64,000 bases of DNA from Cantharellus purpuraceus. Its lineage: Eukaryota > Basidiomycota > Agaricomycetes > Cantharellales > Hydnaceae. The notes under the pieces were generated by a model. It did no database searches. It was not told where the DNA came from and saw nothing but the letters and a program-made list of their open reading frames with translations. Positions 1 to 31,341 of this stretch are shown one piece after another (positions within the stretch are counted from its first letter, which is position 1; the number at the start of each line of letters is the position of its first letter). Where the stretch lies: the NCBI GenBank assembly GCA_025174535.1, contig JALBUN010000017.1, forward strand, positions 124,001 through 188,000, written 5' to 3'. The translations under genes and the position numbers were made by a program.

Positions 1-99
1 TGGAGACGTGGAAGATGGGGTGTATGGAGCACATGCTTTCTTGGAGACGGAGGGTAAAGGAGTTAGAGCCTGCTTGAGCAATGATTTCGAAAGGACCAA
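1..99 (-). pseudogene. Ty3/Gypsy integrase, C-terminal fragment (distal part)
   Basis: Read on the minus strand, this stretch continues the Gypsy Pol reading frame that stops at 7947. It gives GPFEIIAQAGSNSFTLRL followed by SIHPIFHVS, the conserved C-terminal segment of fungal Gypsy integrases. Joining 7947 onward to this segment, and counting the duplicated CAA once, restores ..EKYLG-PFEII.. in frame, so the 100-7946 element landed inside this codon run. The retroelement is degraded elsewhere and is called a pseudogene. The rest of Pol and the other LTR lie left of the window. Confidence 0.85.
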
Positions 100-665
100 G
101 ACGCTTGTTCGGAATCATGTCAGTATACAATATTCTGATGTATATGAGATATACATCAGAATTTCAATGATACATAAAGCCAGGGAGTTACAATTTGGAT
201 ATCTTAAAAGATTTCGGATGTGTGAAATTTTCATAAATATAAACATATATTCTATATTTTAATAAACTTTTAAAGATAAGACATTTGGTTGAGATGAACA
301 TAATTATTTACATGGATATAATAGGAATGTATGTATTAATATAATTGGTATTATATAGGGTATTTAGATATACAAATACCAGGTGGGGATTAAAGATAGT
401 TCAAATTATGTTATAAGTATTGTATAAGAAAGAATCAATGATATTTGGATGTTCCTTCAAGAGAGTTGCCACCACTAAATCAGGAAAAAAAGAATTATTT
501 TTGAGAATTATGCCAAAATATCAAAATATGTTTTAATCTAGTATATTGTGTAAAATTTGAGAATCATGTTGAAATATGAAAATAAGTTTGAATTGAAGTG
601 TATTGTATAAAATTTGAGGAAAATAGGTTGTACATACGTATTTGTTGTATTTCTGAATAAGCGTC
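100..665 (+). repeat. 566 bp terminal direct repeat, left copy
   Basis: Starts GACGCTTGTTCGGAA and ends TTCTGAATAAGCGTC, so the repeat itself has about 15 bp imperfect inverted ends. It reads identical to 7381-7946 by eye. A perfect hairpin lies near the left end: 14 bp arms at 132-145 and 149-162 with a 3 nt loop. The left side has the CAA duplication but the right side (TTA) does not match it, so this copy was not inserted on its own. No coding capacity was seen; the short ORF across the left edge is chance. Confidence 0.85.
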
Positions 666-1204
666 TTAGGAAAGTCTTGGAAACAAACACCTTTAATGCA
701 GTGAAGCTATTTTTAAAACAAAGTAACTTAGTTAGGGCATAGTGGTAGATAATCTTGTTCTAACATAAGACTGTATGACTATCCCTCGTACTTTAGGGTG
801 CAATACCATCAGATTTTCCATCCAAAGTGGTGGAAAATAATGATCCTGCTCCATACTAGTATATAACTCTGTTAATTTCTGTTCCAGAAGTGTGCCATCA
901 GTACATCTGTATAAAGTCAGTGATTGGAACCTTGATATTTATAAAGGAACTTACCTCAGAAACAAATCATGGAGGGATCCTATCCGAGATATATACCAAT
1001 CATTAACTCTTCTATCAAACTCTATCTTGCATTGAAGCATAAAAGAGAGCATCTTCATAATGCTTATAACATAAAAACATAATAATCATTTTATTAAGAA
1101 AGCAAGATGTATATATCTACTGCCTATACAAAATATCAAATGTTCAGAAAAAATGATTATTATGTTTTTTCATTTCTGTTTTATAAGCAGAGAGGGATTT
1201 GAAA

Positions 1205-2418
1205 ATGCCACAAATCTTTGAAGATATAAAAGCAATCAAAGGCTGGATAAGTGACAATGATGCACTGATAAAAGCTATGGCAAGTCAAATGGAAGTAAAA
1301 GATGAATTAATATCTGATCTTATAAATGTCAAGTCTTGGATGAGTGAAAAGGATAGGCAGATCACTATGCTTGAACAACAGGTTAATTCCCAGAGTCAGG
1401 AAATTCAGGTGCTTAAGAAACAGGTTGAGGAAAAAAATACAATTATAACTACTTTGACAGACAGGAAAGAGAATTTAGATGAATGGATGAGTGAAATGAA
1501 TGATATTGTATCAGGATTTGGAACAGATATTCATAAACTTCAGAGACAGGTTAATAGGTGTGTTGCCACAATATCAGACCATGGAACAGATATTCATCAA
1601 CAGGTCAATACACATAATGCAGAGAATCTTATATTGGACTATAGAACAGATATTCATAAACTTCAGAAACAGGTTAATAGATGTATTGCAACAATATCAG
1701 ACATTGTGGAATGGAAATCTGAAGTGCATGAGTGGATTGTAGAAACAGATGATACTGTAGTGGAACTTGGAACAGACATTAATAAACTTCAGAAACAGGG
1801 TGATAAATATAAAGCAATAATATCTGAGATTGTTGACTGGAAATTTGATATGAATCACTGGGCTGGAAAACAAGAACAGGAGGTAACAAGGTTACAGGAA
1901 AATGGTACCAGAAAGGTGACATTTAAGATAGTGAAAAGAGGTGTAGACTATATACTTATAGACTCAGATCAGTCTTGTAGACTAAATAGAATGGAATTAT
2001 TCATAAATGGTGAGCCTAGAAAACTATCTACAATATATACTAGAAAGAATGAAATGTCATCATATGACGTAGATGGTAATAGGATTAATTTTCAAACATG
2101 GAAGCAAGGAATGACTCAAGGTTTAAGGCATCAAGAAAAAGGTCTAATGAACGATCTCAAACTCCTAGTTCAAGGCATCAAGAAAAAAGGTCTAAGGAAC
2201 GATCTGATTCAGACTCTGATCAATCTGATTCAGACTCTGATCAATCTGATTCAGACTCTGATCAATCTGATTCAGACTCTGATCAATCTGATTCAGACTC
2301 TGATCAATCTGATTCAGACTCTGATCAATCTGATTCAGACTCTGATCAATCTGATTCAGACTCTGATCAATCTCAAATTCCTAGTTCAAGAAAAAGATGT
2401 AGAGGGAGAACCCAGTAA
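1205..2418 (+). CDS. coiled-coil cargo ORF with acidic/Ser-rich repeat tail in a shifted frame
   Basis: The first frame, from ATG 1205, gives a long amphipathic coiled coil with at least four diverged repeats of the type GTDIHKLQ.QVNRC.ATISD, then a short non-coiled segment containing GVDYILIDSDQSCRLNRMEL. From about 2098 a second frame encodes a basic/Ser region followed by eight DSDSDQS repeats and stops at 2418. The original frame instead reads through the repeats as LIQTLIN and stops at 2476. The shifted frame looks like the natural tail, so either a frameshift, an unseen intron or programmed frameshifting joins them. I do not recognise the family. A structural or DNA-binding partner of the transposase is only a guess. 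Confidence 0.55.
2206..2373 (+). repeat. 21 bp tandem repeat, 8 copies (DSDSDQS)
   Basis: Eight perfect or near-perfect copies of a 21 bp unit (gattcagactctgatcaatc plus t) that encode an acidic heptapeptide in the frame of the tail ORF. A length that is a multiple of three keeps both overlapping frames open. It is a replication-slippage type of array and likely length-polymorphic. Confidence 0.9.
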
Positions 2419-2432
2419 TGTAAGCCTCCGAA

Positions 2433-3214
2433 GACGTAGGATACAAGGTCACCTTGGAGTGAATGGCTGTCCATGAGCAGTCTAATGATGTCCCTATCTG
2501 TCGTTTCATTTCTCCATGATTTCCCCTTTAGTAGCTCAACTTCACACGCTTCATCAGCTGGCTTGATCAGCATTTCTTGCATCATTTGCTCCTCATATTG
2601 TGTCGTTGTGCCCTGGGAATTTGTATATAAAGGGCGCTAGTTTTTGCCTTTGGAATCAAAAAACAAGTTTTCAGCCAACGCTCTAAGTCTACACTCTACA
2701 TCACAATCCATCATCTCTACACTGAGGTAAAACACCTTGGTTCAACGATCAGATTTCCCTCCGCCACCGAGAGGTTGCTTCTCCTGAAACCAGCTTTCAC
2801 GTACCTCCCAACCGGGCTCCGCATTGTCATCCAGTCACAGAGCACAATCAGCCATCGGGACCGACCTTTTGCTCCCATCCTCATCCAACCACAGAGCACT
2901 ATCCCACTTCCCTGTTACGTACCCCTCGCCCTGATTGATCTTTGGAGTGCTGAACAACTGCGTTACACACCGTCTGCTTGCTAGGACCATTGCACGCAGG
3001 CTTATAGGATCTATTCCATAAGCGAACTGACACCGAGTGACATCATCGGGCTGCTCAAGGACAACGATTCAATTATCTGGTACACCATGCCGCTGCAAAG
3101 TCTCACCTACTGTCTGCTCAGTAAGTGCATCATTATCAACCCTCACAGCCAAAAGGCTGTCCTTTGATAATGTGATCAAACTGCTCCTGACAAGGTGACC
3201 TTCCATCCGACGTC
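2433..3214. mobile_element. nested ~780 bp element with 24 bp inverted ends
   Basis: The left end at 2433-2456 and the reverse complement of the right end at 3191-3214 match at 21 of 24 positions, sharing GACGT and AAGGTCACCTTG. The interior has a TATA-like box (tatataaa near 2624) but no credible gene. It lies directly after the acidic-tail ORF and before the next cargo ORF. No target duplication is obvious. It could be a nonautonomous DNA element, or part of the large element's own intergenic DNA. Confidence 0.45.
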
Positions 3215-3524
3215 ATTACCATGATATGATAATATCCAATCGGCTGGTACACCTATTTAGCTATGCAGCAAAGAATTTGGAATGAAAGACTGGCAAGATA
3301 GGAAACAAGGAACTGGTAGAAGAATGATAGATGAAAGGACAGGGAATTCTGTATGGGACTTTGTTGTAGTATTCAGAACGAGTGCATGCATCTGGCTATT
3401 GACAACTTTAGAAAATATATATAATTCAATTTATAAATATTAGATAAAAATATGGACATTCTGCTCTTCAGAACTATGCACATATCTAGTAAATAAATTT
3501 TATATATCCTTCTTTATTGACATC

Positions 3525-4016
3525 ATGGGTAAAGATAAGAAGTGCAATGATTGGAGTTCTCATGATCTTTGGGATTATGGTATAATGGTTGACACACAAT
3601 GGACTAAACAGTTTTTTGAGACAGATTTTAGAGATATTACTTTAGATACTGATGATGAGATCCTCAGTTTTGATTACAAAAAAGATGATGTGAAATGTTT
3701 AAAGGAGTCTTCAAGAAAATTTTTACATACTTAGATAAGGAAGAATAAGGGAAAAAGTGCTTTAGAGGAAATGACAATACCTTGCATTCAAACATCGAGA
3801 AAAGTCCCCCAGTTTTACCTAGTAACTGTTACAAGAGAGCTTGATCATGCTATCACAGAAGGGTTGTTTTCAGAAGTGATAACAAATGTAAGGTGTTGTT
3901 TTCCTGTAACAGTAACAGGTATGAAACATATTAATAGTAGAAAGAATGTTCTACAGTGTTTTGAAGCATTTAAGAAGTTTGTAGATATACTTGATAGGAA
4001 ATTAGATGAGAAATAA
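3525..4016 (+). pseudogene. cargo ORF split by one in-frame TAG
   Basis: Two open stretches, 3525-3734 and 3771-4016, are in the same frame and are separated only by a TAG at 3732-3734, so they are best read as one product of about 163 codons. The N-terminal half is acidic, with DLWDYGIMVDTQWTKQFF. The C-terminal half contains VPQFYLVTVTRELDHAI and FKKFVDILDRKLDEK. I do not recognise the family. The stop could be a C-to-T change in a CAG (Gln) codon or a readthrough site. Confidence 0.45.
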
Positions 4017-4054
4017 TGAGTTTTGAAAATTAATATATAATAACCAGAGACACC

Positions 4055-4234
4055 ATGTTGAATATACCCGAGATTGGTGATAAGGTATCATTTATCAATG
4101 CAAGAACACAAATGACAGTGACAGGTATTGTTACATTAGTAACTGGCACTTTGTCAGATGACACTTTGCTAATAACTGTTACTTATGATGACAATGAGAT
4201 TCAGCTACCACTATGTGCACTACAACAAGTATAA
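4055..4234 (+). CDS. small 59 aa cargo protein
   Basis: Too short for a typical ORF cutoff. The ATG is at 4055 in the context caccATG and the stop is TAA at 4232-4234. The peptide starts MLNIPEIGDKVSFINA and continues with alternating hydrophobic strands (VTGIVTLVTG, LLITVTYDD), which suggests a small beta-barrel fold of the SH3/Tudor kind. It sits between two other ORFs on the same strand inside the transposon. The fold assignment is inference from pattern only. Confidence 0.4.
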   Translation: MLNIPEIGDKVSFINARTQMTVTGIVTLVTGTLSDDTLLITVTYDDNEIQLPLCALQQV

Positions 4235-4526
4235 GATAAATCAGATAAGTGAATATGCAATATTTTTATTCACTCAAATGAAGGCATGTGTGGTGATAGT
4301 GAAAAATTCAAATTACTTGGAAGTGCAATCATATAACTACTACATCTGTAGTTACAGATTGTAAGGATATTAAATGTCCTAAGAGCTCTGAACATTCAAA
4401 AATACTCATCATGATACTAATGGTACTTATTGTTGTGTGAACAAAAGTTCAAATCTTGAAATTATCCAAGTGAAAATAGATGAAAAATGTTGTGAGTGTA
4501 GAAACTAGGACTTTTAAATCAACTCC
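4235..4526. other. gap between cargo ORFs
   Basis: AT-rich spacer between the plus-strand cargo ORFs and the minus-strand ORF that ends at 4527. It has no open frame of note and no terminator-like structure that I could recognise. Confidence 0.5.
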
Positions 4527-5177
4527 TTATGAGGATTCTTTGAACATCTGATTTCTTATACTTTGGAATATAATGTCAATAGCATTAGAACACTCTTCAA
4601 ACTGAGCTTCTATGCTGTATCCAGAGGAAGGATATACAACAATTGAAACACCCTGATTGTTATTGGTGGTTTCATATAATTTTAACCTACCATCCTTAGT
4701 TATGATCATACCATAGATTGTGATTTTACTTTTCTTGAAAACTCTCTGCTGTTGTTTCAATGCAACAACCATTGATGTAACCAAATTGTTATACACATCA
4801 CAGTTCTTACAAGTTTCCCCAGCAATAGAAATATCACACTTCTTGCCAGTTTCTCTAGCAATAGAAATATTACAACTAGGCAGATTATCCTGTTGCATGG
4901 TTTGCAGACTTGACATACAATGATTTTGTTGAATCCAGGTTGAATTACTTATTTCATTGCCCTTTTCAATCATCTTATTGTACAGTGCTTCTGGTGTTTT
5001 ATCTCTTTCCTGAGAAACCAATCCAGCTGGAAAGAAGTCCTTTGGGGGATTTCTTAATCTGAATTTTATGTAGATGGTGTCAGAGTCTATATACAAAGGA
5101 TTTTCATCATCCTCTGGTTCTTTTTTAACAAAGACAGTAGATATTTTACTAACAACTTGCTTAGAGACAGACAACAT
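4527..5177 (-). CDS. cargo ORF, 216 aa, unrecognised
   Basis: A single open frame on the minus strand, opposite to every other cargo ORF in the element. The N-terminal third contains KKEPEDDENPLYIDSDTIYI. The middle has an internal duplication (CNISIARETGKKCD, then CDISIAGETCKNCD). The C-terminal part, KITIYGMIITKDGRLKLYE then GVSIVVYPSSGYSIEAQF, looks like a folded alpha/beta domain. No signal peptide or membrane segment was seen. The paired cysteines could bind metal, but the pattern is not a known finger. Family not recognised. Confidence 0.55.
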   Translation of the reverse strand: MLSVSKQVVSKISTVFVKKEPEDDENPLYIDSDTIYIKFRLRNPPKDFFPAGLVSQERDKTPEALYNKMIEKGNEISNSTWIQQNHCMSSLQTMQQDNLPSCNISIARETGKKCDISIAGETCKNCDVYNNLVTSMVVALKQQQRVFKKSKITIYGMIITKDGRLKLYETTNNNQGVSIVVYPSSGYSIEAQFEECSNAIDIIFQSIRNQMFKESS

Positions 5178-5273
5178 AGCTTCATAGAATAAATATTATT
5201 TAATTTAAAATTCAATTATCAAAAAAATGAACATATTTTTGTTTTACTGTAATATAAGAGTATCTTAGTCAAA

Positions 5274-5474
5274 ATGCCCTCAGACCAGCAAAAACGCACA
5301 AAGGAGCAAAAAGAGAAAGAGCAAAAAGAGAAAGAAGAAAAAGAGCTTCAGCAACTTAAAATGTGGAATGATCAAAGGGACAGAGCATATAATAAGTTGA
5401 TGGACAATCATTGGAATTTTCTATACACAAAGTGGCCTGTCTTAGAACACAAAAATATCATAGAACAAAACTAA
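5274..5474 (+). CDS. small charged helical ORF, 66 aa
   Basis: Starts ATG 5274 and reads as a highly charged Lys/Glu/Gln helix (QKEKEQKEKEEKELQQLKMW) followed by DNHWNFLYTKWPVLEHKNII. It may be a stand-alone small protein or a detached N-terminal exon of the transposase that follows. The two are separated by about 20 nt with stops in the transposase frame. Confidence 0.4.
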   Translation: MPSDQQKRTKEQKEKEQKEKEEKELQQLKMWNDQRDRAYNKLMDNHWNFLYTKWPVLEHKNIIEQN

Positions 5475-5496
5475 AAGATATGAATGACATGGATGA

Positions 5497-6748
5497 TGTA
5501 AAAAAGTAGTATATAACAAGCTTGGACCAATACCAGTATTTTTCTTTCTTGTGGTATTGTTTTCAGTTGAAGAACATTCTACACCTTATAGAGAGATAGA
5601 AAAAGGCTTGTTAGTACTATATCATCTACTCAAAGGTCCTACTTATGAATAAATAGGAAATTTCATGCCATCAAGTAGCTTTTATGATGTTCATAAGGAA
5701 TTTTATGGTCGTCTGCATCATCTTAACTTTGATCTAGATAAACAAGTTACTGATTAACTGCGTACAATGTTCTCAAATATAATAATAAGGATATTATCAG
5801 CTCTTATAAAGAATCCTCCAAAAATGGAATCAGTGACATTACTTCTTGATGGTCATGATACAAGAGGAATTTTGATTGGATCGACATCTGAAGAGGGGTA
5901 CTCACATAAATTTAAAAAGGCAGGATTTCGTACTCAAGTATGCATTGACATTAATCAAATGGTTCTATTCACCTCACCTTCATTGGCATGTAAACTAAAT
6001 CCTGATGCAAAAATGTTTGTAGAGATGGCTGTATGGAATAAAATAGATAAGAATGATCAGATAGGCTTTGATGGAGCTTATCCATCTGCTATTCCAGAAG
6101 TAGTAAAGGCAAGTATATTAAAGCCTAAGAACTTCTTTTATCCTTTTCGGAAGCCAAAAAATGTTGAACTTAAACCTGAAGAAAAGATTTTTAATAAGAA
6201 GTTTGGTGCCTTTCGTTCAACAGTAGAAGCATTCTTTGGAGGGTTTGCAATATTGTTTGAAAAATTTGATAATAAGAGATCTATTAGAACTACAAATCCT
6301 GCTGTCTTTAATCTGGAATTAAAGGTAGCATGTCTATTATGGAATATTAAGAAATTTGTAGAACTACGTAAGATCAAACCATCCCCTTATCATGAAAAAT
6401 GGTGTGAACAATATTTTGATTACCCTGAGGAAGAGGACCCAGATATTGAGCCACCCAGATCATTACTGGAAAGAGCAGAAGATGTTGACAAGATGACTCT
6501 ATCTCAACAACGACTATTAGAAAGATGTGAGTATGATGTGGAGATGCATTATGAGACTGAAAATGAAGTAGAACAAATAATAAGGCAAAGAAAAAGGAAA
6601 GTACGTAGAATATTTAGTTAAATGGAAATGTTATGCAGAGAAAACTTGGGAAGCAACATCAAGCTTTAAATCTACAGAATGTATTAAAGAGTATTGGAAA
6701 GACAATAGTAATAATATTATTGTATACCTATGCTACATTCAACTGTAA
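5497..6748 (+). pseudogene. Harbinger/IS5-like DDE transposase with C-terminal chromodomain (broken)
   Basis: From the ATG at 5767 the frame contains LLLDGHD, FDGAYP and FRSTVEAFFGGF. These give a D-D-E triad at about residues 28, 102 and 154, with the R..VE..F context typical of DDE_Tnp_4/Harbinger nucleases. The same frame continues upstream to about 5497 with credible sequence but two TAA codons (5650, 5755), both where Gln fits. At about 6590 the frame shifts, and the next frame gives YVEYLVKWKCYAEKTWEAT then ECIKEYWKD, a chromodomain core whose first strand (EVEQII) lies in the previous frame. The stop is at 6746-6748. It would cut and join the element's ends; the chromodomain would direct insertion to modified histones. 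As read it is broken in three places. Confidence 0.7.
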
Positions 6749-6803
6749 ATTTTTTTCCCAGAATAAAATTGAATATTTGTATGTTTTATACTTATAGGTA
6801 TCT

Positions 6804-7301
6804 ATGGAGACTGATCCATTACTGAAACAGCGTCTCAATCAACAGTTTTACCAAAAGCCTTTTCACAGCAATCCACACCGGCTAGCTAATTGTACAACGT
6901 GTGACTGGTACCCCTTTGGGCAGTATCTGGACCGTTCATATGCTGAAGGTGAAGTGTTCCAGCTTTCAAAGTATCCTCATATCAAATATGTATTTCTTGG
7001 TCTACAACCTGATAAAATAGGCTATAATGAAAGTGATCCTATTTTTGTAGCAGAATTTGCAGGTTTTCTGAATAAAACCAACAGATTTGTAAGTGGTTCT
7101 GATCCAACCTCTGGATATGCACACATTATAACCACACATGTGAATCAGGCGTTTGTTAGACAGCCAGGCCCAGATATAAATAGGCAGAAACTATATCTTG
7201 GCCGTACAGTGCACATGATCTACATAACTAGTATTGGTATACTATTGGCTTTGCTGTGTTGGACAGTGTCCAGACATACCAATGAAGATAAGAATTCATA
7301 A
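6804..7301 (+). CDS. cargo ORF, 165 aa, predicted C-terminal membrane anchor
   Basis: An intact open frame from ATG 6804. The N-terminal part is soluble and Cys/Trp-containing (NCTTCDWYPFGQYLDRSY). The C-terminus has a hydrophobic span, MIYITSIGILLALLCWTV, followed by a short charged tail, as in tail-anchored proteins. It is the last ORF before the right direct repeat. Family not recognised. A membrane-anchored protein is unusual cargo for a cut-and-paste transposon. Confidence 0.55.
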   Translation: METDPLLKQRLNQQFYQKPFHSNPHRLANCTTCDWYPFGQYLDRSYAEGEVFQLSKYPHIKYVFLGLQPDKIGYNESDPIFVAEFAGFLNKTNRFVSGSDPTSGYAHIITTHVNQAFVRQPGPDINRQKLYLGRTVHMIYITSIGILLALLCWTVSRHTNEDKNS

Positions 7302-7380
7302 TGGCATGTCTAAATCTATGGAGAAAGAAGCTTGTTGATGATATAAGGTGATGATTTTTGTTTTTAAAATGACCTCCCTA

Positions 7381-7946
7381 GACGCTTGTTCGGAATCATG
7401 TCAGTATACAATATTCTGATGTATATGAGATATACATCAGAATTTCAATGATACATAAAGCCAGGGAGTTACAATTTGGATATCTTAAAAGATTTCGGAT
7501 GTGTGAAATTTTCATAAATATAAACATATATTCTATATTTTAATAAACTTTTAAAGATAAGACATTTGGTTGAGATGAACATAATTATTTACATGGATAT
7601 AATAGGAATGTATGTATTAATATAATTGGTATTATATAGGGTATTTAGATATACAAATACCAGGTGGGGATTAAAGATAGTTCAAATTATGTTATAAGTA
7701 TTGTATAAGAAAGAATCAATGATATTTGGATGTTCCTTCAAGAGAGTTGCCACCACTAAATCAGGAAAAAAAGAATTATTTTTGAGAATTATGCCAAAAT
7801 ATCAAAATATGTTTTAATCTAGTATATTGTGTAAAATTTGAGAATCATGTTGAAATATGAAAATAAGTTTGAATTGAAGTGTATTGTATAAAATTTGAGG
7901 AAAATAGGTTGTACATACGTATTTGTTGTATTTCTGAATAAGCGTC
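7381..7946 (+). repeat. 566 bp terminal direct repeat, right copy
   Basis: Same orientation and apparently the same sequence as 100-665, including the 14 bp-arm hairpin and the GACGC/GCGTC ends. It is followed by CAA (7947-7949), matching the bases before the left copy. The bases before it (CTA) do not match, so the two copies share one target duplication. Confidence 0.85.
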
Positions 7947-8515
7947 CAAGATATTTCTCCAATAGTTTCTTGGAAGGTCTTGTAGTATGTATGCTGTCAG
8001 ATTTGACGAAAACCTTGTCTCCAACCTTGAAGTCCAGAGCCAGAGATCGACGGCGGTCAGTGGAGGTGGAGTAATGGAGTTGGGCATCAGAGATGGTCTT
8101 TTGGAGATGCTGGTGGAGTTCATGGAGATCCACAGTGAAGTCTCGAGCTCTTGAAGAAGTGAGGTCTCGTTCTGGATGTACAGAGATGTTTGGGTGGTAA
8201 CCCTTGTTGGCAAAGAATGGAGATAAGCCAGTAGTGGCGTTCGGAGCATTATTATACACAAATTCTGGGAGTGGGAGTAAGTCAGACCAGTTGTCCTGTT
8301 GGTAGTTGCAATAGACTTGGAGGTACTGTTCCAAAGTCTGGTTCATTCGTTCAGTTTGTCCATCGGCTTCTGGATGGTATCCGGAGGTGAAGTGGAATTT
8401 AATGTCCAAGGCCTTTCTGAGGGTTCAGAAGAAAGAGGACACGAACTCCATACCTCAGTTGGAGGTAATGTGTATGGGAACTGGTTTTCCCTTAAAAAAA
8501 GATCTTGTTTAAAGT
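7947..8515 (-). pseudogene. Ty3/Gypsy integrase core, degraded
   Basis: The minus strand encodes HFTSGYHPEADGQTERMNQ, then LPEFVYNNAPNATTGLSPF and KVGDKVFVK, the second half of a Gypsy integrase core and its GPY-like C-terminus. Upstream, two Arg codons have become TGA (CGA to TGA), and the conserved acidic residue of the ITSDRG-type motif reads as Asn. Around 8515 the frame jumps directly into gag-like sequence, so protease, reverse transcriptase and RNase H are deleted. The distal end continues at 1-99 beyond the inserted transposon. Confidence 0.85.
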
Positions 8516-30164: not shown

Positions 30165-30730
30165 GATGCTTATTCAGAATCATGTCATTATACACTATTC
30201 TGATGTATATGAGATATACATCAGAATTTCAATGATACATAAAGCCAGGGAGTTACAATTTGGATATCTTAAAAGATTTCAGATGTGTGAAATTTTCATA
30301 AATATAAACATATATTCTATATTTTAATAAACTTTAAAAGATAAGACATTTGGTTGAGATGAACATAACTGTTTATATGAATATAACAGTGATGTATGTA
30401 TTAATATAATTGGTATTATATAGGTTATTTAGATATACAAATACCAGGTGGGGATTAAAGATAGTTCAAATCATGTTACAAGTATTGTATAAGAAAGAAT
30501 CAATGATATTTGGATGTTCCCTCAAGAGAGTTGCCACCACTAAATGGGGAAATAAAGAATTATTTTTGATAATTATGCCAAAATATCAATATATGATTTA
30601 ATCTAGTATATTGTGTAAAATTTGAGAGTCATGTTGAAATATGAAAATAAGTTTTAATTTAAGTGTGTTGTGTAAAATTTGAGGAAAATAGGTTGTATAT
30701 ACATATTTGTTGTATTTTTGAACAAGCATC
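30165..30730 (+). repeat. solitary 566 bp element, copy 3
   Basis: Homologous over its full length to the terminal direct repeats of the 100-7946 element. The ends read GATGCTTATTC and GAACAAGCATC, with C-to-T changes in both GACGC ends. It is flanked by TTG at 30162-30164 and 30731-30733. The empty site is visible near 9523 (gaagcttgaactcg). The hairpin arms are preserved. Confidence 0.85.
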
Positions 30731-30776: not shown

Positions 30777-31341
30777 GACGCTTGTTCGGAATCATGTCAG
30801 TATACAATATTCTGATGTATATATCATATACATCAGAATTTCAATGATACATAAAGCCAGGGAGTTACAATTTGGATATTTTAAAAGATTTTGGATGTGT
30901 GAAATTTTCATAAATATAAACATATATTCTATATTTTAATAAACTTTAAAAGATGAGATATTTGGTTGAGATGAACATAATCATTTACATGGATATAATA
31001 GGAATGTATGTATTAATATAATTGGTATTATATAGGGTATTTAGATATACAAATACCAGGTGGGGATTAAAGATAGTTCAAATTATGTTACAAGTATTGT
31101 ATAAGAAAGAATCAATGATATTTGGATGTTCCCTCAAGAGAGTTGCCACCACTAAATGGGGAAAAAACAGTTATTTTTGAGAATTATGCCAAAATATCAC
31201 AATATGTTTTAATCTAGTATATTGTGTAAAATTTGAGAATCATGTTGAAATATGAAAATAAGTTTTAATCTAAGTGTGTTGTGTAAAATTTGAGGAAAAT
31301 AGGTTGTATATATGTATTTGTTGTATTTCTGAACAAGCGTC
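30777..31341 (+). repeat. solitary 566 bp element, copy 4
   Basis: 565 bp from GACGCTTGTTCGG to GAACAAGCGTC, flanked by TAT at 30774-30776 and 31342-31344. The empty site corresponds to cattgctgttacccg near 9565. The hairpin arms are intact while the loop differs (atc instead of gag). Confidence 0.85.

Follow-up and report, generated by a model that had tools for sequence, protein, structure and literature searches.

A 64,000-nucleotide stretch of the Cantharellus purpuraceus genome (contig JALBUN010000017.1, C17:124001-188000; hereafter the window) carries near its left end a mobile element in which two long direct repeats enclose a core with a Harbinger-type transposase. Comparison with its relatives in the 40.15 Mb searched (50 contigs) establishes that the 566-bp repeat, which bears terminal inverted repeats (TIRs), inserts at C-TWA-G sites with a 3-bp duplication and exists both alone and paired around a 6-7 kb transposase core. 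Moreover, the common ancestor of the two repeats within an element is younger than the one that they share with the repeats of other elements, and each pair was probably copied from one repeat when the core inserted. The account that we tentatively favour, at just short of an even chance, is that of a paired-end DNA transposon of PIF/Harbinger type, which would pass through a one-repeat stage before its core enters a resident repeat with gap repair.

The repeat occurs alone and in pairs

An initial annotation of the window had described two identical 566-bp direct repeats with outer ends GACGC/GCGTC and a single shared CAA duplication outside the pair. All three features hold: the repeats agree in 566/566 letters, their ends form a longer imperfect inverted repeat that matches at 13/15 positions, and the flanking 3-mers read CAA/CAA. 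The proposed restoration of a Gypsy integrase frame upon removal of the unit is matched by real empty sites, as the 37-nt join of the flanks with a single CAA occurs at 21 genomic places (up to 3 mismatches, 1 exact; controls 0). The window element lies in a Gypsy-like copy, and the same sequence is present without the interruption at other genomic places.

Genome-wide, the first 30 nt of the repeat have 490 matches (250 + 240; up to 3 mismatches; controls 0), and repeat-core junctions number 63 on the 5' side and 60 on the 3' side. We assembled 47 repeat-core-repeat elements from part of these junctions and aligned the repeats of 139 of the 490 repeat ends in all. A pair on C37 was dropped because its 5' repeat failed the 350-nt filter, while the tandem (repeat-core)n-repeat arrays present on C45, C44, and C38 were kept outside the set. 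Outer 3-mers match in 38/47 elements, whereas shuffled flanks match in 8.4 on average and never in more than 18. With 490 repeat starts, and 38 units in different places that have matching outer 3-mers, neither an assembly artefact nor chance accounts for the structure. Flanking 4-mers match in none of the 47, so the duplication is 3 bp long. It reads TTA or TAA in 21/38 elements, and the target C-TWA-G is apparent from C at position -4 (26/38) and G at +4 (23/38).

Solo repeats carry the same mark of insertion. Matching 3-mers flank 22/28 of the solos first examined and 28/35 when later ones are included; L119 and L120, two repeats beside elements, also have matching 3-mers but stand outside these counts. 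As twenty of the solos came from copies whose first 30 nt match perfectly, the sample leans young. The two old solos of the window, each with its own 3-bp duplication, are separated by 46 bp and differ from each other at 38 positions. For one host-repeat site, the junction with the repeat has nine matches; two of these carry 3 mismatches, and in one, on C15, the repeat is inverted. The repeat has thus entered the same site more than once by independent insertion. An apparent empty copy of this host-repeat site lies at L121:440-465 (reverse complement of GATGCATCAGCATCACC-ATA-GGAACC), a site that is occupied by repeat ends elsewhere.

Cores were found only next to repeats. All 60/60 core starts adjoin a repeat (59 by junction overlap; one, C45:2948836, inferred from coordinates, directly after a repeat with an altered junction), as do 58/58 core ends found (56 by junction overlap, 2 by reading the DNA). 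A core travelling without its repeats, which would have spoken against a single transposition unit, was looked for and not seen (0/118). The initial reading of a single unit that combines a Harbinger-type transposase with 3-bp duplications and long direct repeats is borne out.

At L121 and L122, core ends lie beside divergent repeat copies, starting with GATGTTTG and GATGCTTG, and the L121 repeat is by eye interrupted by other sequence. These divergent repeats suggest that the paired architecture is older than the present burst.

Repeat pairs, cores, and their origin

A first regularity of the family lies in its repeat pairs. Where the outer 3-mers match (38 elements), a pair differs at a median of 1 of 566 positions and is identical in 14 cases, while repeats of different elements differ at a mean of 12.0 of 566. 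The pair differences of all 38 elements sum to 65; in 20,000 shuffles of partners the sum averaged 435 and never fell below 335. In 1348/1406 ordered element pairs, the repeats of one element are closer to each other than are the 5' repeats of the two elements. Same-site r2 between the two repeats reaches 0.99 (17 elements, 20 sites) and 0.95 (38 elements, 25 sites).

Proximity alone does not produce this agreement. Sixteen pairs of neighbouring repeats lying no more than 10 kb apart and not belonging to one element show at least 3 differences each, with a median of 10 (p=5e-8); they were picked from listed coordinates, with three further pairs outside, and some include one repeat of a full element. 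Nearness alone thus does not homogenise repeats, and general cis gene conversion is disfavoured as the main cause of identical pairs. The low differences relative to both shuffles and neighbours indicate that a single repeat gave rise to both members of a pair, at or near the time of insertion. In the 9/47 elements whose outer 3-mers do not match, the median rises to 7 (p=4e-4), in line with an origin by recombination between elements; two of the nine show only 1 and 2 differences.

Repeats and cores follow different histories. Across a set of 21 elements, of which 17 have matching 3-mers and 4 do not, the difference between elements is 0.53% for cores and 2.1% for repeats, and the two sets of distances are uncorrelated (Mantel r=0.13, p=0.19). 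By part, core segments taken as non-coding differ by 0.12-1.33% and the transposase by 0.38%. Repeats of elements are about as diverse (1.9%) as young solos (2.0%), with 2.2% between full elements and solos; young solos are the 31/35 less than 4% from the repeat of the window, and with all 35 solos the latter two values become 2.6 and 2.5%. A segmental duplication shared by C29 (L004, L005) and C8 (L026) contains an element whose site is the same in both copies but whose cores differ. Its flanks over ~2 kb agree in 1000/1000 bases on one side and save for 1 mismatch and 3 gaps on the other, and its 3' repeats agree save for 1 gap. The cores, however, show 18 mismatches in 3 kb (rank 13 of 21), no closer than those of unrelated elements. 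Likewise, the window element and that on C29 have identical repeats and 13 core mismatches in 3 kb. Identical repeats with different cores, together with the uncorrelated distances, imply that cores change partners with repeats.

The route that we favour would accommodate both regularities. Recombination between paired repeats would release the core with one repeat, most likely as a circle, and leave behind a solo repeat with its duplication. The core could then enter another repeat site, most often a resident solo, via homologous recombination with gap repair; the resident repeat would be the template for both of the new flanking ones. The transposase would spread repeats to new sites, while cores would spread among repeats. 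A broader reading, which we consider possible but somewhat less probable than this route, describes a two-part mobile system: a MITE-like repeat (MITE, miniature inverted-repeat transposable element) colonises sites with duplication, and the 6-7 kb core is a homing passenger that duplicates resident solos by gap repair. If true, the LTR-core-LTR form (LTR, long terminal repeat) would be a product of DNA repair without reverse transcription.

Three variants were rejected. Plain crossover of a circle into a solo, as drawn for the animal KolobokP elements in PMC9587614 (Fig. 5b1), would give pairs that differ by ~12, and at most 5/38 come near this value. If a resident repeat jumped replicatively into a core circle devoid of repeats, the inner 3-mers should be equal, but these are TTA (47/47) and CTA (46/47, the 47th being an alignment shift). 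For repeats leaving full elements as free MITEs, the repeat-less core ends number 0/118.

Several observations weigh against entry of cores into resident repeats. No circle of core plus one repeat has been observed, and Pfam recognised no recombinase or homing endonuclease in the core open reading frames (ORFs) scanned. At the duplicated locus the 5' repeats differ by 4 mismatches and 1 gap, and 5/38 elements with matching 3-mers show 5-7 differences within the pair. In 17 elements, linkage disequilibrium (LD) is undetectable between the two halves of one repeat (p=0.26) and between the last two 1.5-kb core blocks (p=0.34), and it is weak between the repeat and the first 700 core bases (p=0.04). 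Given this generally low LD, the decoupling of repeat and core is not sharply confined to their junction. Strong general recombination would be an alternative, and unit transposition with heavy core conversion would fit too. Moreover, repeats may mutate faster than the core, and core segment 2420-3520 also reaches 1.33% between copies.

Two rivals of the gap-repair route are live, each rather unlikely and neither ahead of the other. In the first, a circle that holds the core and one repeat would be joined to a new site as a cointegrate, by replicative action of the transposase on that repeat. A single event would yield both direct repeats together with the outer duplication, and recombination across the pair would give back the circle while a solo stays behind. 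Cointegrate formation is within the capacity of IS5-type and Tn3-type transposases. This model yields direct orientation, identical repeats, and the outer 3-bp duplication together, and it agrees with insertion of repeats at many C-TWA-G sites and in both orientations at one host-repeat site. It also predicts that repeat and core travel jointly, but their distances are uncorrelated, with a 4-fold higher diversity in the repeats, and cores differ between copies whose repeats are identical. An extra exchange with solos would be required.

The second live rival holds that the whole unit transposes, that its repeats are made identical at this step, and that cores are later homogenised by gene conversion. 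Cores do recombine, as LD in the core decays from 0.35 under 150 bp to 0.06 beyond 3.5 kb; LD is low within the repeat too, and the duplicated locus with different cores could reflect conversion. What this model leaves unexplained is that pair agreement is spared while the core between changes, and that the repeats of elements match the solo pool in diversity.

Far less probable is a plain composite transposon, in which two MITE copies move the core by cut and paste. The initial annotation had considered a composite of two nonautonomous copies, and one part of that idea stands: each repeat has TIRs of its own and also occurs singly, flanked by its own duplication, and bacterial composites are built in this way. 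Simple co-mobilisation of independent copies is not supported, because it predicts within-element differences at least as large as those between elements (observed: median 1 vs 12) and conflicts with the 1348/1406 ordered comparisons. Rescue by cis conversion is disfavoured by the neighbour pairs, and the repeat-less core ends expected if repeats left alone are absent (0/118). Least probable, and only slightly behind, is a non-autonomous LTR retroelement whose identical pair is made by reverse transcription in trans and whose complementary DNA is integrated by a Harbinger-type enzyme: identical pairs, solos, recombinants without matching flanks, and strong recombination are all usual for LTR elements, but no reverse transcriptase is recognised among the core ORFs, TG..CA ends are lacking, the 3-bp duplication lies at a palindromic target, a 15-bp TIR is present, one ORF runs on the opposite strand, and solos could not feed diversity back.

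Core genes and element anatomy

The Harbinger-like DDE domain recognised in the initial annotation corresponds to PF13359, although the transposase frame of the window copy itself carries stops. Open frames of ~450-500 aa persist in several genomic copies. In the L025 copy, the PF13359 match (E=6.5e-5, 23 bits) falls just below the cutoff of 24.8, while the relatives P0001 and P0028 lie above it. D193, D226, D267, and E319 are invariant in 18/18 transposases. Of 41 transposase homologues, 29 combine PF13359 with the chromodomain PF00385; the three named organisms among the homologues are Apophysomyces, Thamnidium, and Chlamydoabsidia. The structural model (mean predicted local distance difference test score, pLDDT, of 82.8) predicts a DDE/RNase H-like fold. 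In Kolobok transposases, the C/DxxH motif is placed after the second D. Here, a [CD]xxH motif occurs in 0/18 transposases between D267 and E319 and in 3/18 anywhere between D193 and E319, by eye in no one conserved place.

Among the core ORFs scanned, Pfam gave no match to a reverse transcriptase, although one may act in trans, nor to a His-Me finger nuclease. A Myb/SANT-type protein had no Pfam match in ORF1, ORF3, or ORF5 in what is a weakly sensitive search.

Table 1. Features of the element and related repeats in the window
Feature	Position	Strand	Remark
Left target duplication (CAA)	97..99	.	3-bp duplication, left copy
5' long terminal direct repeat (LTR/LTDR), 566 bp	100..665	+	
Left TIR of repeat, 15 bp	100..114	+	13/15 match to right end
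Imperfect palindrome in repeat, 31 nt, 90%	132..162	.	
Right TIR of repeat	651..665	-	
Inner flank TTA	666..668	.	same in 47/47 elements
Core (internal region), 6715 bp	666..7380	+	6.06-7.13 kb across 21 copies
ORF1, coiled-coil-like protein	1205..2476	+	no family above its cutoff
ORF3, 216 aa in other copies	4527..5177	-	no homologue at E<=0.001
Transposase region (DDE_Tnp_4)	5274..6621	+	D193, D267, E319 (L025 copy); frame interrupted in window copy
ORF5, 165 aa	6804..7301	+	one confident C-terminal helix; no homologue at E<=0.001
Inner flank CTA	7378..7380	.	same in 46/47; in the 47th the alignment begins 2 bases late, CTA there too
3' long terminal direct repeat, identical to 5'	7381..7946	+	
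Right target duplication (CAA)	7947..7949	.	3-bp duplication, right copy
Old solo repeat, same family	30165..30730	+	flanks TTG/TTG
Second old solo repeat	30777..31341	+	flanks TAT/TAT

The palindrome within the repeat is a possible protein-binding site. Both core ends (666-690 and 7350-7380) continue, after TTA/CTA, with GGAAAGTC and, reversed, GGGAGGTC, possibly the remnant TIR of an older element. Further inside the core, 24-nt inverted repeat arms (2433-2456 and 3191-3214) bound a stretch that overlaps the most variable core part (2420-3520, 1.33% between copies); stretch 2433-3214 is possibly a nested element. Within ORF1, at 2197-2385, lies a 21-bp tandem repeat, which in an overlapping frame encodes a Ser/Asp-rich array.

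Relation to known mobile systems

With the PIF/Harbinger (PHIS) group the element shares the PF13359 transposase, 3-bp duplications of TWA type, and short TIRs (13/15) at the ends of the repeat and hence of the unit. Known members have TIRs at the element ends; to our knowledge, no other PIF/Harbinger member has long direct repeats, and the titles and abstract openings of the papers listed in literature searches yielded no Harbinger element so built. The architecture had been called unusual on first inspection, but it has a precedent in KolobokP of animals (PMC9587614).

KolobokP elements, as presented in the sections of Kojima & Bao 2022 (PMC9587614) covered here, consist of two long terminal direct repeats (LTDRs) around an internal region (LTDR-INT-LTDR), with TIRs inside the LTDR, solos with target-site duplications (TSDs) of 3-5 bp, (LTDR-INT)n-LTDR multimers, and a DDE transposase in the core. 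They belong to the Kolobok superfamily, have been reported from seven animal phyla, and mostly carry a His-Me finger nuclease, which is not visible in some families. Paired LTDRs around a core, TIRs inside the repeat, solos, and multimers are all present in our family as well. In contrast, KolobokP repeats measure ~450 or 660 bp rather than 566 bp, those sections report no strong target preference comparable to C-TWA-G, and one KolobokP family has 46 elements that lost one repeat, whereas none of our 118 core ends did. According to a figure legend of the same paper, a C/DxxH motif precedes the last catalytic E in Kolobok transposases and is conserved there; it is not conserved in our transposases. 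The PF13359 match and the missing motif make the paired ends look like an independent origin within the Harbinger group, apparently in a superfamily other than Kolobok. The architecture itself is thus already published, and what is new here is its occurrence in apparently another superfamily and outside animals. The KolobokP authors drew a circle-into-solo model, and the sections covered contain no test on repeat pairs. The open question of how paired ends are kept up gains a measurable answer, namely that both repeats derive from one, and the two-part scheme outlined above may also underlie KolobokP.

Bacterial composite transposons and the IS26 translocatable unit resemble the element in that direct repeats with their own TIRs flank a passenger, and in that a circle of one repeat plus passenger has been proposed. 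They differ in that the transposase here resides in the core and not in the repeat. Moreover, the flanking repeats are not two independently evolving elements, unlike in a composite of bacterial type.

LTR retrotransposons share the near-identical pair per insertion (median 1 of 566), solo repeats, and recombinants without TSD. They are set apart by 4-6 bp duplications and TG..CA ends, compared with 3 bp and GACGC..GCGTC here, where no reverse transcriptase is recognised and a transposase takes the place of the integrase. Identical long terminal direct repeats are usually taken as a signature of reverse transcription. Here, a DDE DNA transposon gives the same population signature of near-identical pairs, solos, and TSD-less recombinants, a warning for annotation software that calls LTR elements on structure alone.

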